Of a DNA stretch of 33,477 bases, positions 9,399 through 14,769 are shown piece after piece (position 1 is the first letter of the stretch; each line of letters opens with the position of its first letter). The position numbers were made by a program, and so were the translations under genes. The notes beneath the pieces were generated by a model. It was not told the origin of the DNA, ran no database searches, and worked only from the letters and a program-made list of their open reading frames with translations. Origin of the DNA: a virus; IMG/VR virus record IMGVR_UViG_3300000117_000119, positions 1 through 33,477 of that record; one strand, 5' to 3'.

Positions 9399-9519
9399 AG
9401 ACCCAAAGAAATTCCCAGTGGACTTCTGGAATTACTTAGTGAATCCAATACTAGGATATTATGTCCCTCCTACCCCTTCAAGTTTTAGAGGAAGTAGATT
9501 AAAAGATACTGATGGATAA
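9376..9519 (+). CDS. 47-residue small protein between the terminase genes
   Basis: This short basic protein (ARAKKIRDPKKFPVDFWNYL, then GYYVPPTPSSFRGSRLKD) is proline-rich at its end. It overlaps the small-terminase gene by 23 bases and the large-terminase gene by 8 bases, in frames distinct from each. The tight tiling suggests it is translated. No family was recognised; a packaging accessory role is possible. Confidence 0.45.
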   Translation: MARAKKIRDPKKFPVDFWNYLVNPILGYYVPPTPSSFRGSRLKDTDG

Positions 9520-10726
9520 AGTAAATCTAAACCCTAAGTATCAAAATCTATTTAAGTCTGATAGTAGGTATTTTGTTATGACTGGAGGCAGGGGTTCTGG
9601 GAAATCATTTGCCACTACAGTATTCTTAGTGTTGCTTACCTATGAGAAAAACAATAGGGTTTTATTTACTAGGTACACCATGAGTTCAGCGAGTATGAGT
9701 ATCATCCCTGAATTCATTGAGAAGCTAGAATTAATGGGAGTAATAAATGATTTTACTATTACTAAGTATGAAATCATAAACAATCTAACAGGGAGCTCTA
9801 TATATTTCTCAGGGATTAAAACTGCTAGTGGAGACCAGACTGCAAAGCTTAAATCTATCAGTGGGGTCAACACTTTTGTTTTAGACGAAGCAGAGGAACT
9901 TACCGATGAAGAAAGCTTTGATAAGATAGACTATTCTATTCGTGCCAAAGGTGTAAGGAATCGTTGCTTGTTAATCCTAAACCCTACTACAAGGGAGCAT
10001 TGGATATACCAAAGATTCTATCAGAACAGGGATATCCCAGATGGATTCAATGGGGAGAAGAATAATGTATCTTATATCCATACTACTTATTTAGATAATG
10101 CAGAACACCTAAGTGAATCCTTTGTGAATCAAGTGGAGGATATGAGGGTAAGAAGACCCGATAAATTCAAGCACCAGATAATGGGGGGTTGGCTACAGAA
10201 AGCTGAGGGTGTAATCTTCACTGACTGGCAGATTGGACAATTCAATGAGGATGTAGATTTAAAGGCATGGGGTATGGATTGGGGATTTTCTAGAGACGCT
10301 TCAGTCCTTGTAAAAGTAGCCATTGACAAACATAGGAAAATAATCTGGTTAAAGGAATATCTTTATAAAAAAGGATTGGTTACCTCTAATCTATATGATG
10401 AATGTATCAGACACGCAGGAAAGGAGCTAATCGTGTGCGACAACTCTGAGCCCCGCTTAATTGCCGAACTCTCAACCAGAGGCTTGAATCTAAGCCCTAC
10501 GATAAAAAAGAAAGGAAGTATCTTATCTGGTATTGCACTCATGCAAGACTATACTATAAACGTAGAAGGAGAGAACTTAGTCAAAGAGTTCAATAACTAT
10601 GCTTGGGCAGTAAATGGCATAAAACCATTAGAAAATGGCTACGACCACTGTGTCGATGCAAGTAGGTATGCAATTCAGTATATGCTTACTCGTTCAGTGC
10701 CTAAAGGAATGTATATTGTAAAATAA
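9512..10726 (+). CDS. terL: terminase large subunit
   Basis: This 404-residue protein is the packaging motor and headful or site nuclease. Walker A is GGRGSGKS at 25-32 and Walker B with catalytic Glu is VLDEAEE at 123-129. The RNase H-like nuclease domain shows GMDWGFSRDAS near 250, VCDNSEPRLI near 310 and HCVDASRYA near 385, placing the metal-binding acids. Length is typical. It would bind the portal and translocate DNA into proheads. Unusually, portal lies about 19 kb downstream rather than adjacent. A promoter starts one base after its stop. Confidence 0.95.
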   Translation: MDKVNLNPKYQNLFKSDSRYFVMTGGRGSGKSFATTVFLVLLTYEKNNRVLFTRYTMSSASMSIIPEFIEKLELMGVINDFTITKYEIINNLTGSSIYFSGIKTASGDQTAKLKSISGVNTFVLDEAEELTDEESFDKIDYSIRAKGVRNRCLLILNPTTREHWIYQRFYQNRDIPDGFNGEKNNVSYIHTTYLDNAEHLSESFVNQVEDMRVRRPDKFKHQIMGGWLQKAEGVIFTDWQIGQFNEDVDLKAWGMDWGFSRDASVLVKVAIDKHRKIIWLKEYLYKKGLVTSNLYDECIRHAGKELIVCDNSEPRLIAELSTRGLNLSPTIKKKGSILSGIALMQDYTINVEGENLVKEFNNYAWAVNGIKPLENGYDHCVDASRYAIQYMLTRSVPKGMYIVK

Positions 10727-10727
10727 A

Positions 10728-10759
10728 TTTGGTAGAGTCAAAAATAATATGTAGATTTG
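10728..10759 (+). promoter_or_regulatory. strong promoter candidate after terminase
   Basis: TTTG 10728-10731, spacer of 20, TAGATTTG 10752-10759 (exact box). The spacer begins GTAGAGTC, close to the GCAGTTGG of other sites. The only thing between it and a strong terminator is a stretch of about 65 bases without a gene. Confidence 0.65.
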
Positions 10760-10764
10760 ATTGT

Positions 10765-10829
10765 TTCATTGTAAATTTTTAGTTAATAATTGGTTTGAGA
10801 GCCACCTGTAAAAAGGTGGTTCTTTTTTT
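10765..10829 (+). ncRNA. candidate small RNA, antisense to a shared leader
   Basis: A promoter ending at 10759 and an intrinsic terminator ending at 10829 bracket about 65 bases with no usable ORF. The RNA would carry AATTTTTAGTTAATAATTG (10774-10792), which is the exact reverse complement of 13800-13818, the leader 7 bases before ATG 13825. By hand alignment 17 of 19 positions pair with the leader of the 14164 gene and 16 of 19 with that of the 13970 gene. The 3' terminator hairpin is of the kind found on trans-acting small RNAs. An alternative is a relic of an inverted leader. No experimental support. Confidence 0.35.
10798..10829 (+). terminator. intrinsic terminator
   Basis: AGAGCCACCT (10798-10807) pairs with AGGTGGTTCT (10814-10823) over 10 bp with a 6-base loop, followed by a T tract. 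Confidence 0.85.
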
Positions 10830-10833
10830 GCAT

Positions 10834-10860
10834 AAAAAAAGGGTAACATTTCTGCTACCC
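10834..10860 (-). terminator. intrinsic terminator of the minus-strand gene
   Basis: On the minus strand GGGTAGCA and TGTTACCC form a hairpin followed by a run of seven T. It ends the gene at 10871-11269 and lies back to back with the plus-strand terminator. Confidence 0.8.
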
Positions 10861-10870
10861 TTCTGTGGAT

Positions 10871-11269
10871 TTAATCATCCTTCGGCTTTCTCCATGTTGT
10901 GTATGGATACTTGCCCCTGCAATCCCAAGTGTCCCTTACAAGACCTTCGTCTAAACACACGAGGTGATTAGCAAGTTGAACTACATAGGTTTCATTCTGG
11001 CTGACTGGATATTGACCTAAACGATACCCTTTTATTTTAGCCTCCTTTTTGAAACCTCTTTTTTTGAGGAACTCCTGCCAAGTGGAATTGGCATTTGGCA
11101 TATCCCCACTTTCGAGGGAGTGTTCCCAGAGTTCACTTCTGACAGTCTGGTAGTCCTCTTTTGTAGCTATGGATAATGCCCTAATTACGCAGTCTCCCAC
11201 TCTGTCTTTTTTGTACTTCATCTGGAAGTATTTATGTCTACCTCCATCATCATAAATGTAATCATTCAT
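10871..11269 (-). CDS. papain/C39-like cysteine-peptidase-like phage protein
   Basis: This 132-residue protein is the only confident minus-strand gene. It has DRVGDCVIRALSIATKEDYQ near the N-terminus, which would place a cysteine at the start of a helix, and YVVQLANHLVCLDEGLVRDT near the C-terminus with a histidine and downstream Asp (DTWDCRG). This Cys-His-Asp order is known in a group of phage proteins that look like papain-fold peptidases. Activity is not shown for this group to my knowledge. ATG 11269 was chosen over an in-frame TTG nine bases upstream. It has its own promoter (11319-11350) and terminator, so it is a separate unit, perhaps expressed at another time. Confidence 0.6.
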   Translation of the reverse strand: MNDYIYDDGGRHKYFQMKYKKDRVGDCVIRALSIATKEDYQTVRSELWEHSLESGDMPNANSTWQEFLKKRGFKKEAKIKGYRLGQYPVSQNETYVVQLANHLVCLDEGLVRDTWDCRGKYPYTTWRKPKDD

Positions 11270-11318
11270 TTGTTTCAAATTTTAGTTAATCATTATGTCA
11301 ATGAACTTAATCACTGAT

Positions 11319-11350
11319 TCAATATACATTAGCCAGATGACACAACCAAA
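11319..11350 (-). promoter_or_regulatory. minus-strand promoter candidate
   Basis: Read on the minus strand: TTTG (11350-11347), spacer of 20, TATATTGA (11326-11319). The spacing is the same as on the plus strand. It drives the gene ending at 10871 and is divergent from the promoter at 11407. The -7 box deviates at two positions. Confidence 0.5.
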
Positions 11351-11406
11351 TTATTTCATGACTTTAACATAATTTTAACATAAAGTGTTAAAGTTTTGTT
11401 AGAAGA

Positions 11407-11437
11407 TTTGGCAGTTGGAAAAATAGTTGTATGTTTG
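11407..11437 (+). promoter_or_regulatory. promoter with GGCAGTTGG spacer motif
   Basis: TTTG 11407-11410, spacer of 19, TATGTTTG 11430-11437 (exact box). The -33 box and spacer read TTTGGCAGTTGGAAA, shared with the site at 11901. The 15-mer TGTTAAAGTTTTGTT at 11386-11400 lies just upstream and recurs at 13573-13587. Confidence 0.7.
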
Positions 11438-11611
11438 CATCAGCAATATTGCTAAATCATTTAATACTTAGAACAATTCGAAATATTTAATTTAGTTAAA
11501 AGTAATGGGGAAATTAACTTTAATGTTAAAGCTAACACCCTTGAGAAGAAACAACAGTTTGTTGGAGGTTTAATCGCCAAAAGAACAGTAAAAGGCTCAG
11601 AGAATATCGTA

Positions 11612-11836
11612 GTGATATTTCATGAGAATGGCATCGGAGCAAAATTACCAGTTAATAAAGTGGCAAGTAGCTTCTGTGGGTTTACAATCTTAGGAGATGT
11701 ATTGATTGAAATTAAGCACAAAGATTTAGTCAAACTAACAGATAAATATCTATGTAAGTTCTCAGCACTTCACTCTACTGTTGAGGATAATAAAACCAAT
11801 GTAGAGAGACTTCAGGATATTATTAATACAAATTAA
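11612..11836 (+). CDS. hypothetical protein, probable frameshifted N-terminus
   Basis: The callable start is GTG 11612 (74 residues), but the same frame is open and protein-like back to 11465 with no ATG, GTG or TTG. A leader-proximal ATG at 11505 is in another frame and stops after 22 codons; one extra G in the GGGG at 11507-11510 would join it to the main frame and yield a protein of about 110 residues starting MGEINFNVKANTLEKK. Within it, GLIAKRTVKGSENIVVIF and GFTILGDVLIEIK look beta-rich. The gene may be truly broken, translated by a shift, or affected by a base-call error. Function unknown. It is followed by a terminator. Confidence 0.5.
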   Translation: MIFHENGIGAKLPVNKVASSFCGFTILGDVLIEIKHKDLVKLTDKYLCKFSALHSTVEDNKTNVERLQDIINTN

Positions 11837-11861
11837 TTGCTTGTGTGTGTCTATTGTTAAA

Positions 11862-11891
11862 GGGGTGTCAGAGATGATGCCCTTTTTTTTT
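11862..11891 (+). terminator. intrinsic terminator
   Basis: GGGGTGTCA (11862-11870) pairs with TGATGCCC (11875-11882), loop GAGA, one bulged G, then nine T. Confidence 0.75.
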
Positions 11892-11900
11892 ATCATTTTA

Positions 11901-11931
11901 TTTGGCAGTTGGAAAATAATTACTATCTTGC
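11901..11931 (+). promoter_or_regulatory. promoter with GGCAGTTGG spacer motif
   Basis: TTTG 11901-11904, spacer of 19, TATCTTGC 11924-11931. The first 15 bases, TTTGGCAGTTGGAAA, are identical to the site at 11407. It precedes the Sm-like protein gene. Confidence 0.6.
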
Positions 11932-11961
11932 ACTCAGATTAACATTTAAAACTATATTATT

Positions 11962-12234
11962 ATGACTATTACATTAGAAGAAATTTTAGACAAAGTATCG
12001 AATGGCAAAGTATTCTCTGCCAAGTTCGTTAAGAAAGATGGTACTGAACGTACAATGAACTGTAGAACTGGTGTTGTAAAACACACTACAGGTAAAGGTT
12101 TATCCTTCAACCCTATCTCAGCTAAACTTATTCCAGTGTTCGACATGAATAAGAATGGCTACAGATTTATCAGCTTTGATAGATTGAACTGGATTAAGAT
12201 AGGTGGAAAGAAATACACTAACTTTAAAAAATAA
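11962..12234 (+). CDS. Sm-like/WYL_2-type SH3-barrel protein
   Basis: This 90-residue protein matches the small phage family with an Sm-like SH3 beta-barrel (WYL_2 type). The signature is FSAKFVKKDGTERTMNCRTG at about 19-38, followed by the strand FDMNKNGYRFISFD. The family is widespread in tailed phages; ligand binding or RNA interaction has been proposed but is not established. It has its own promoter 31 bases upstream and leads a run of five co-directional genes that ends at 13451. Confidence 0.75.
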   Translation: MTITLEEILDKVSNGKVFSAKFVKKDGTERTMNCRTGVVKHTTGKGLSFNPISAKLIPVFDMNKNGYRFISFDRLNWIKIGGKKYTNFKK

Positions 12235-12239
12235 TTAAG

Positions 12240-12419
12240 ATGGAAAACAATAAACTTATAGACAAAGTGGATGATGGATTTAATTATTTCTTAGATTACA
12301 GATTGGAAGAACTTAAATCAGATGACAAATATTATATAAAATCTTTTATAGATTATATAGAAAATTTAGAAATAAGGGTAGATAGATTAACAAAAGAACT
12401 TAAAAAGAAAAACAAGTAA
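12240..12419 (+). CDS. 59-residue coiled-coil protein
   Basis: This small, acidic then basic protein has an N-terminal part rich in Asp (IDKVDDGFNYFLDYRLEELK) and a C-terminal heptad helix (FIDYIENLEIRVDRLTKELKKK). It probably dimerises through the coiled coil. No family was recognised. It lies 5 bases after the Sm-like gene and 2 bases before the next, so it is co-transcribed. Confidence 0.5.
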   Translation: MENNKLIDKVDDGFNYFLDYRLEELKSDDKYYIKSFIDYIENLEIRVDRLTKELKKKNK

Positions 12420-12421
12420 TC

Positions 12422-12706
12422 ATGACAAAGAAATTCCAACAAGTAGTAGACTTTTACAATTCGACCACACCAGAACAATGGTGTTACTTTCTGAATATGA
12501 TTTCAGATAGGATTTCAATACCCACTCCCAAAATAGATAAAGATGGGAATAGCTATATCGATTGTGTTAATGTATCTGAGGAAGCTCCTGCTTGTCCCAA
12601 TGGAGCGATGATACAAATCAACACTGAGGACTTTGAGAATCATTCAAACCTACTCGAAGAAGAAACCAATCCTGTGGAGGAAATAAAAGAAATATGGACA
12701 TCATGA
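12422..12706 (+). CDS. hypothetical protein with acidic tail
   Basis: This 94-residue protein begins FQQVVDFYNSTTPEQWCYF and ends in a strongly acidic tail (NLLEEETNPVEEIKEIW). The centre holds VNVSEEAPACPNGAMIQINT. No family was recognised. The acidic surface could mimic DNA or bind a basic host protein, but nothing specific supports this. It overlaps the next gene by 13 bases. Confidence 0.45.
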   Translation: MTKKFQQVVDFYNSTTPEQWCYFLNMISDRISIPTPKIDKDGNSYIDCVNVSEEAPACPNGAMIQINTEDFENHSNLLEEETNPVEEIKEIWTS

Positions 12707-12909
12707 GTGTAGACCCAACAAACGATGTAGCAGGAGATATCTTTGAAGAAATAGTAGGAGATACCTTAGGTTCAATAGAGCACAACCTAACCCATATCAT
12801 AGATGAAAATCTAAACACCTCAGCAGTCAGAGGTGAATGGCACGAATGGTTCTGGGATAACCGAGAACAAATCAAGGGCGCTATAATGGATAAAATTAAA
12901 ATAGATTAA
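12694..12909 (+). CDS. small acidic protein
   Basis: This 71-residue protein is acidic (VAGDIFEEIVGDTLGSIEHN, then HEWFWDNREQIKGAIMDKIK). It is predicted to be helical, with an aromatic patch (WHEWFW). I recognise no family. Overlaps with both neighbours, 13 bases before and 1 base after, indicate coupled translation in the 11962-13451 operon. Confidence 0.45.
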   Translation: MDIMSVDPTNDVAGDIFEEIVGDTLGSIEHNLTHIIDENLNTSAVRGEWHEWFWDNREQIKGAIMDKIKID

Positions 12910-13451
12910 TGAGAGGCATAGACAAATTGTTTAGGTTTCATGAACTCAGTAGAGGGTCTCAGATAGAGGCTCTCTACAATGAAAGGGATGCCACAATAAA
13001 AGCAGGGTATCTTTATGCTGATGAATCTATCAACAGTTTATTTGAATTTGCCAAAATCTTAGGGACTAAGGTAACTGACTTCGATATCAATTTCTACGAT
13101 GCAACCGAAAAAAGTTACTGCAAATTTAAAAGCCAATGGAAATACAAAGATGTTGATTGGCATGAGATAATTCAAAACCTATCTAAGATAGATGGATTGT
13201 TCACTGGATACTTTGCAGATGTACACCTATTTAGAGAGCTCAGGGAGGCAGTTTATGAGGACAATGAACTCAACCCTAACAAAATCCTTAAAAGATGCTT
13301 TAATGAGTGGCTGAGAGCTTGTAGAGAGGAAGCAGACACTTATATAAGTGAAGACTATCTTAGAAGTAAATTTGAAGCAGGTGATTTCCTTTTTCTGGAG
13401 GATGGCACTTACTTCTCAAGAGGGGATAATCCACTTAGTTATTTAGTATAA
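12909..13451 (+). CDS. conserved phage hypothetical protein
   Basis: This 180-residue protein has blocks ILGTKVTDFDINFYDA near 50 and SYCKFKSQWKY near 69, then a helical region and a C-terminal AGDFLFLEDGTYF. The combination of a beta segment with SYxKF and a terminal (F)xxDGxxF strand resembles phage early proteins of unknown role that I have seen in other tailed phages; the link is weak. It is the last gene of its operon, and its stop codon is also the first base of a GAATTCAATA repeat array. Confidence 0.45.
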   Translation: MRGIDKLFRFHELSRGSQIEALYNERDATIKAGYLYADESINSLFEFAKILGTKVTDFDINFYDATEKSYCKFKSQWKYKDVDWHEIIQNLSKIDGLFTGYFADVHLFRELREAVYEDNELNPNKILKRCFNEWLRACREEADTYISEDYLRSKFEAGDFLFLEDGTYFSRGDNPLSYLV

Positions 13452-13531
13452 ATTCAATACCTTAAAATGTAAATTCAATAGGTGTAAATTCAATAGGTGT
13501 AAATTCAATACCCCCCAATGTGAATTCAATA
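13449..13531 (+). repeat. five copies of TRAATTCAATA
   Basis: Copies of T(A/G)AATTCAATA start at 13449, 13470, 13485, 13500 and 13521, so spacings are 21, 15, 15 and 21 bases, a symmetric pattern. Four begin TAA and the last begins TGA, giving stops in several frames. The array lies between the last codon of the 12909 gene and a terminator. Related copies occur at 1885-1912 and near 15505. A protein- or RNA-binding array is possible. Confidence 0.6.
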
Positions 13532-13556
13532 CCCCCTTTTTTTAGGGGGTTTTTTT
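13531..13556 (+). terminator. intrinsic terminator
   Basis: ACCCCCT (13531-13537) pairs with AGGGGGT (13544-13550) around a T-only loop, followed by a T tract to 13556. Confidence 0.8.
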
Positions 13557-13824
13557 GTGGCTTTTTGCCAAATGTTAAAGTTTTGTTAAAATTGGAAAAA
13601 TAGTTTTTTCCTTTACCCTTTTTTATACTTTTACGGGTGAATACGTTATTTGAAATATCGGCATTAAGTGAGTTTTTGAGCTATTTAGCGACCAAGACAG
13701 AATATGATTAGCGGGAATACATAAAGAAACAAGCGAAAATTTCACAACGAAAGGGTATGAAAGAACCGACTATTTGTAAGAAACTCACTTTTATAAAATC
13801 AATTATTAACTAAAAATTATTATT
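13557..13824 (+). other. 268-base leader with long-range pairing and a broken ORF
   Basis: No intact gene is seen. It contains the 15-mer TGTTAAAGTTTTGTT (13573-13587), then TTGGAAAAATAGTT (13592-13605), identical to part of the 11407 promoter, but without a good -7 box. AAGTGAGTTT (13666-13675) can pair perfectly with AAACTCACTT (13781-13790), closing a 105-base domain that holds small hairpins such as GCTATTTAGC (13680-13689). A GTG-started frame at 13637 reads 24 plausible codons (MNTLFEISALSEFLSYLA...) to a TAG at 13709, and a -1 shift there would extend it by about 24 more. It may be a structured RNA leader, a decayed gene, or both. Confidence 0.45.
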
Positions 13825-13941
13825 ATGCAAAACGGACTAAATCAAAATGAACATTTACTTAATTGTGAAATATGCAATTCACTAATGACAGAAGAAGAAC
13901 ACAAATATTGTGATATTTGCGGCGACTGCTTAGAAAATTAA
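13825..13941 (+). CDS. 38-residue zinc-ribbon-like microprotein
   Basis: This tiny protein has two CxxC pairs separated by about 14 residues (CEIC...CDIC, then GDC), the layout of a one-knuckle zinc ribbon. Similar minimal zinc proteins occur in phages and plasmids. It starts after ATTATTATG, and its leader holds the 19-base sequence complementary to the candidate RNA at 10765. It is the first gene of a cassette whose base use differs from the rest. Confidence 0.5.
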   Translation: MQNGLNQNEHLLNCEICNSLMTEEEHKYCDICGDCLEN

Positions 13942-13969
13942 AATCAACTATTAAATAAAATTTATTATT

Positions 13970-14137
13970 ATGGAAAAATTTACCAAAGAACAAAAAGAAA
14001 TTATTGCTTATTGCGTTTCTGTTATGGAATGCGATATTGAGCCTGATTCGAAAATGGCTGGTGATTTTAAAGCTATATTATTTAAATTCCAAAATCAAGG
14101 AATTTGGGGGCATATAGATACAAACTCATTCATTTAA
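13970..14137 (+). CDS. 55-residue hypothetical protein
   Basis: This small protein (EKFTKEQKEIIAYCVSVMEC, then MAGDFKAILFKFQNQGIWGH) is likely helical. I recognise no family. Its leader (CAACTATTAAATAAAATTT) is a near copy of those of the two neighbouring genes, which suggests common translational or RNA-based control. The strong A/T content fits the other cassette genes. Confidence 0.45.
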   Translation: MEKFTKEQKEIIAYCVSVMECDIEPDSKMAGDFKAILFKFQNQGIWGHIDTNSFI

Positions 14138-14163
14138 TCAACTATTAACTAAAATTTAAAACA

Positions 14164-14769
14164 ATGGAATTATTAACACAAAACACAAAATTGAAAAACA
14201 CATCTAAAACCATGAATAAAAGAGTATTCAATTTTGGAATAACTGCATACAAAAGCATGTCAGGGAAATTAATTTGTCCCTTTGCCAAAGATTGCGTAAA
14301 GTATTGTTATGCTCAAAAAGGTGCTTATTCATGGAGCAATGTAAAACCCGCTTTTGAGAAAAGATATGAATTAACCAAAACCGATAATTTCATTGATTTA
14401 ATGAATAGCGAAATTAAAAGGAAAAAAGTTGATTTTTTACGGATACATGATAGCGGAGATTTTTATTCTAAAGACTATATAAAAAAGTGGTTTACAATTG
14501 CCAATGATAACCCAAACGTAAAATTTTATGCATACACCAAAAGTTTTATTTTATTTCAGGGGTTAAACATTCCTGATAATTTAGATATAATATTTTCAGA
14601 AGGTGGAAAGCATGATAAATTGATTAACACTAAAATACACCGCCATGCCCGTATTTTTGACAATGAAAGCGACCTAATAAAAAACGGTTATGTTAACGCC
14701 AGTAAAAATGACCTAATGGCAACAAAGTTTTTTAATGAGTCTAATAAAGTTGGGCTAATCTTTCACTAA
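14164..14769 (+). CDS. Gp88-like cysteine-cluster protein
   Basis: This 201-residue protein resembles the phage family named after mycobacteriophage gene product 88. Signature blocks are FNFGITAYKS, a cysteine cluster CPFAKDCVKYCYAQKGAY near residue 38, NVKPAFEKRYELT, VDFLRIHDSGDFYS near 95 and KFYAYTKS near 120. The cluster (C-x5-C-x3-C) recalls metal- or Fe-S-binding domains, distantly like DUF5131 or radical SAM proteins, but the spacing differs from canonical CxxxCxxC. Biochemical role unknown. It has a leader nearly identical to those of the preceding two genes and is the largest gene of the cassette. Confidence 0.7.
   Translation: MELLTQNTKLKNTSKTMNKRVFNFGITAYKSMSGKLICPFAKDCVKYCYAQKGAYSWSNVKPAFEKRYELTKTDNFIDLMNSEIKRKKVDFLRIHDSGDFYSKDYIKKWFTIANDNPNVKFYAYTKSFILFQGLNIPDNLDIIFSEGGKHDKLINTKIHRHARIFDNESDLIKNGYVNASKNDLMATKFFNESNKVGLIFH

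Follow-up and report, generated by a model that had tools for sequence, protein, structure and literature searches.

The window, that is, the whole stretch of DNA analysed here, comprises the 33,477 bases of a virus record. Among the TerLs of the annotated phage collection, the one of the Nonlabens phage P12024L is the closest (52% identical), and a search for prophage relatives in bacterial genomes yielded only TerLs with 39-41% identity, in Bacteroidales. Directly behind the terL stop codon lies a predicted promoter, which was found in pattern scans and consists of TTTGG at 10728 and TAGATTTG at 10752-10759 with a spacing of the Bacteroidota type. It is followed by around 32 mostly unpaired bases and an intrinsic terminator with an 11-bp stem and a T-run ending near 10829; the stem is kept in relatives with a few compensatory changes. 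The predicted RNA folds into an unpaired 5' part and one hairpin and contains no sizeable plus-strand ORF according to the ORF list of the window. A search of the window against Rfam gave no family match at the gathering score, and BLAST of the unit against cultured phages returned short, chance-like matches only. The initial annotation had described 10728-10829 as a promoter, an RNA of about 65 nt and a strong terminator without an ORF, and this anatomy is borne out. Judged from the sequence, the locus forms a predicted transcription unit of its own, with promoter and terminator, and probably represents a small-RNA gene belonging to a family of marine Bacteroidota phages. The features of the window that are relevant here are as follows:

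9512 to 10726, plus strand: terL, terminase large subunit (tblastn to annotated TerLs; ORF), with the small-RNA unit behind it
10728 to 10759, plus strand: predicted Bacteroidota-type promoter TTTGG...TAGATTTG (pattern scans; kept in relatives)
10765 to 10829, plus strand: predicted small RNA of about 65 nt, 5' end placed from the promoter (fold z = -4.1)
10774 to 10796, plus strand: putative antisense segment complementary to cassette leaders (duplex matches; tile ranking)
10797 to 10829, plus strand: intrinsic terminator ending the small RNA and any readthrough from terL (stem 10797-10824, T-run)
10871 to 11269, minus strand: gene matching phrog_3754 (function not assigned)
11277 to 11295, minus strand: possible target, leader of the minus-strand gene with ATG 11269 (top 0.25% of tiles)
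13796 to 13818, plus strand: best predicted target site, leader of the 38-aa ORF at 13825 (23-nt duplex, one G-U)
13825 to 13941, plus strand: 38-aa cassette ORF (weak zinc-ribbon-like match, below the cut-off)
13941 to 13963, plus strand: weaker leader copy before ORF 13970 (pairing unremarkable)
13970 to 14137, plus strand: 55-aa cassette ORF without a family (ORF list; family searches)
14136 to 14157, plus strand: second strong predicted target site, leader of the GP88 gene at 14164 (near-match; tile rank)
14164 to 14769, plus strand: GP88-family gene (PF17338, E 6.5e-39)

A second hairpin with a T-run is located at 10840-10862 on the minus strand and ends the minus-strand gene that runs down to 10871; two convergent terminators therefore lie back to back. 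Further downstream, a small gene encoding a WYL_2 domain (Sm-like fold, PF10902) is found at 11962-12234 with a promoter-like site just upstream, and this gene family is present in 51 related loci.

The starting point of the analysis was the claim that 10774-10792 is the exact reverse complement of 13800-13818. Indeed, CAATTATTAACTAAAAATT occurs exactly at 10774-10792 on the minus strand and at 13800-13818 on the plus strand, and the predicted duplex extends to 23 nt (10774-10796 with 13796-13818) with one G-U pair. It is located just 5' of the ATG at 13825 and would cover positions -29 to -7, the ribosome-binding region of this phage gene. Near-matches to CAATTATTAACTAAAAATT are present at 14139 (17/19), 13945 (16/19) and 11277 on the minus strand (16/19), and five sites with at most three mismatches compare with 0.14 expected in dinucleotide shuffles. 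Targets were ranked by the duplex energy of 6,678 tiles from both strands of the window, without preselection of leaders. The top three tiles all lie at the leaders of 13825 or 14164; the leader of 11269 on the minus strand, whose similarity had already been noted, falls within the top 0.25%. The leaders of 14164 and 13970 had both been proposed as diverged copies that could pair; this is supported by the interaction prediction for 14164, whereas the leader of 13970 pairs weakly (top 6-10% of the tiles), which makes it doubtful as a third target. The RNA locus is separate from its candidate targets, which are 0.5 and 3 kb away, as expected for a trans-encoded RNA.

From five TerL scans of viral contigs, 232 loci were obtained in which the TerL end could be used; many of these loci overlap or share a contig. 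A unit of promoter, short RNA and terminator is found within 1.5 kb behind terL in 160 of the 232 loci, representing 70 distinct sequences. When the unit is defined strictly, with the promoter at most 75 nt from the stop codon and the terminator 18-100 nt further on, 42 out of 109 distinct terL ends carry it, and TTCAT is found in 34 of these 42. The strict unit is seen at 3 of 900 ends of other genes and in 0 of 327 shuffled sequences. The sequences of the terminator stems vary between groups, but two motifs of the unpaired part stay: among 44 dissimilar RNAs, 31 have TTTCAT, the best-kept one (5.6 expected), and 18 have GTTAAT (2.7 expected). TTCAT lies 5' of GTTAA in 18 of 19 RNAs, and the successive RNA motifs UUUCAU and GUUAA are complementary to ATGAAA and TTAAC. 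The minus-strand ORF starting from the antisense ATG is not conserved; it differs between groups and often has 3-22 codons. Since this ORF varies while the unit persists, it is the plus-strand RNA, and not a minus-strand gene, that is conserved.

In three relatives (L003, whose TerL is 100% identical to that of the window, L004 and L009), the unit is retained although an extra gene lies between it and terL. A gene starting with MKILNLYACLGGNRYKW is located directly behind terL in L003, L004, L009 and L063, and in the first three the small-RNA unit comes after it; judged by eye from its start, this gene appears methylase-like. P12024L has no such unit; its next genes lie directly behind terL, and no TTAACTAAA-type cassette is found there. 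A pattern scan outside the terL context revealed similar units of promoter, UUUUCAU..UUUUAGUUAAU and terminator in L136 (5239-5330), L146 (around 10236, minus strand) and L085 (around 14761, minus strand), which are not behind terL as far as seen. The best pairing sites of these three candidates in the examined DNA are mostly not leaders, and they were therefore not counted as support.

The leaders themselves show a common pattern across the relatives. TTAACTAAA is enriched before ORFs (39 of 87 occurrences versus 6 of 43 for the reversed word), and these leaders are located on the plus strand, mostly 1-3.4 kb downstream of terL and ahead of apparently unrelated small genes. The variable cassette with enriched complementary starts lies 1.5-4.2 kb downstream. 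AACTAA is present in 25.6% of the cassette translation starts versus 3.5% of the genes upstream of terL, and ATGAAA begins 28% of the cassette genes versus 13% of the upstream genes; both are complements of the two kept RNA motifs. Genes of the cassette thus appear to share a translation-start module without a Shine-Dalgarno (SD) sequence, TTAACTAAAA..ATG. Just before the accessory cassette, at 13450-13540 of the window, an array of direct AATTCAATA repeats is found, which are around 15-21 bp apart and have one orientation. Of 35 representative loci, 31 have such an array of 3-5 repeats, in most cases 0.8-2.8 kb downstream of terL; it may represent an iteron-like origin or a protein-binding array.

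Co-variation was assessed by comparing the complementarity of the RNAs to their own cassette leaders with that to the cassette leaders of other phages, using one representative per RNA group and removing row and column means. Without the window, the 34 groups show a diagonal excess of +1.22 (permutation p = 0.0008), which is equalled by 1 of 919 dinucleotide-shuffled RNA sets. The controls are not significant (mid-gene stretches, -0.07; opposite leader strand, -0.58; leaders upstream of terL, +0.40, p = 0.12). The complementarity thus co-varies as in trans-encoded sRNAs, with a median p of 0.002 for 15 TerL clusters at 90% identity and, more weakly, a median p of about 0.03 with a wide range for 8 clusters at 85% identity. 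In L242, for example, the leaders read AACTAAATTAAAACACTA and the RNA complement AACTAAATTAAAACAATA; in L290, ACTAACT is found in both the leader and the RNA complement, where the window has TTAACT; and in L258 and L373, the pairing runs through the ATG. Several groups (L010, L007, L264 and L040) show no excess on their own cassette. The pairing in most relatives comprises 11-19 nt and is shorter or weaker than in the window, and in many of them the leaders are not the best site of the contig by energy. A first energy test with all leaders gave a weak signal (mean z -0.97 versus +0.19 for internal controls), a fixed-register test, in which the antisense start codon is aligned to the ATG, gave p of about 0.04-0.05, and the ratio of G-U-compatible to incompatible differences, considered as a sign of pairing, is 1.5, by estimate about the level of base composition and therefore uninformative. 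The tests were developed with the very data that had first revealed the pattern, and the restriction to cassette leaders was chosen after seeing where the leaders lie; the signal across relatives is moderate. The initial annotation had named co-variation in related phages as a test that could refute its proposal, and the antisense segment does co-vary with the downstream cassette leaders. A single dedicated phage target was also considered and rejected: when gene families were clustered and their leaders ranked, no family was consistently on top.

The best explanation for these observations, to which we give about an even chance, is a trans-acting antisense RNA that represses the translation of cassette genes sharing the SD-less leader. 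A housekeeping-type promoter behind terL would produce an RNA of around 65 nt, consisting of an unstructured 5' half and the terminator hairpin. The 5' half would be antisense to the start module of the variable cassette genes around 3 kb away, and its pairing in the infected cell, with or without a chaperone, from around -29 to -7 relative to the start codon would keep the 30S subunit off the cassette mRNAs, thereby lowering or timing the expression of the cassette genes as a group. Translation initiation in Flavobacterium relies on the structure of the mRNA and on adenines at -3, -6 and -12/-13 (PMC6847099), and Shine-Dalgarno sequences are not recognised by the ribosomes of Bacteroidia (PMC9976891). 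An RNA bound at -29 to -7 would cover much of this adenine-dependent initiation region, which argues for antisense repression; as the RNA is complementary to the translation starts of accessory genes, it probably turns these genes down. More tentatively, it might act as a master anti-leader RNA against the shared SD-less module; any cassette gene entering with this module would then come under one switch, similar host starts would perhaps be hit and differing core phage starts would be spared.

The UUUCAU motif goes beyond the initial annotation and could also fit host translation starts. The unit may encode a real antisense RNA that is directed mainly against host mRNAs and interferes with translation in the host, whereas core phage genes are spared by their different starts. 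The RNA carries the antisense of a typical Bacteroidota start (an A-rich leader and AUGAAA), UUUCAU is the best-kept motif (31/44), and ATGAAA starts 26-43% of the genes in three sampled Bacteroidota genomes. On the starts of these three genomes, the excess over shuffled RNAs is +0.5 to +1.3, which exceeds that on phage genes upstream of terL (+0.45); the mid-gene control gives 0.1-0.3. However, the own cassette leaders fit best (+1.7) and co-vary, and bacterial genomes contain few near-exact sites (0-5 per genome). Host mRNAs are thus considered rather unlikely as the main targets. In the late-gene control of phage lambda, the same anatomy of promoter, leader and terminator is found, and the unit could be an attenuator at which a phage or host factor gives readthrough, with the motifs as its binding site. 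The location of the next genes on the plus strand in most relatives speaks for this; however, a loose pattern places another promoter-like site within 160 nt downstream of 65 of the 70 units, and the unit of the window is followed by a minus-strand gene with its own terminator, which makes attenuation less likely. As it also leaves the co-variation with the leaders unexplained, it is regarded as improbable.

An end-of-operon terminator is expected behind terL, and this terminator alone might be functional, with the promoter and the complementarity arising by chance in AT-rich DNA. This is very unlikely given the frequency of the strict unit (42/109 versus 3/900 and 0/327) and the five complementary sites versus 0.14 expected; moreover, shuffled RNAs do not co-vary. 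The initial annotation had itself offered a relic of an inverted, duplicated leader as an alternative, and the segment could likewise be the real leader of a minus-strand mini-gene, since the minus strand does read leader, then ATG. The minus-strand ORFs differ, however, often with 3-22 codons, while in many diverged phages the segment lies between the plus-strand promoter and terminator, and the two antisense motifs persist. This reading was rejected as hardly credible. Neither a relic nor a bare terminator explains the conserved promoter and motifs.

If the antisense reading is correct, the small RNA behind terL, which looks like a new RNA family, would represent a family of regulatory RNAs from uncultured marine Bacteroidota phages that is absent from Rfam; literature searches of open-licence papers, judged by title or abstract, listed none that describes an RNA of this kind from phages of Bacteroidota. 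It would be a simple means of controlling a changing set of accessory genes together, with the leader as the address label and the RNA as its reader. Furthermore, it would be a natural antisense block of initiation in bacteria that do not use Shine-Dalgarno sequences, making it testable which part of the leader a non-SD ribosome needs. Owing to the co-variation, the targets in many phages can be predicted from their sequences.

The sar RNA of phage P22 is cis-encoded opposite its target. The same applies to OOP of lambda, whereas the RNA and its predicted targets in the window are separate loci: no conserved minus-strand gene is found at the unit, and the targets lie elsewhere. Trans-encoded sRNAs of Bacteroides have Bacteroidota promoters and an intrinsic terminator at the 3' end. 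The predicted RNA resembles them in both elements (compare PMC7366714, PMC10994844), but the Bacteroides sRNAs are chromosomal, and no Rfam family matches the window. Like c4, sar and OOP, phage-encoded antisense RNAs whose targets are phage genes as well (PMC12197685), the RNA would be directed against genes of the phage itself. c4 of P1 and P7 is similar in that it blocks translation by pairing around the ribosome-binding site; however, c4 pairs through loops of its structure and acts on ant (PMC12197685). The predicted RNA of the window, in contrast, has its own promoter and terminator and an antisense 5' half that is largely unpaired in the minimum free energy structure, and would act on several unrelated candidate targets 3 kb away.
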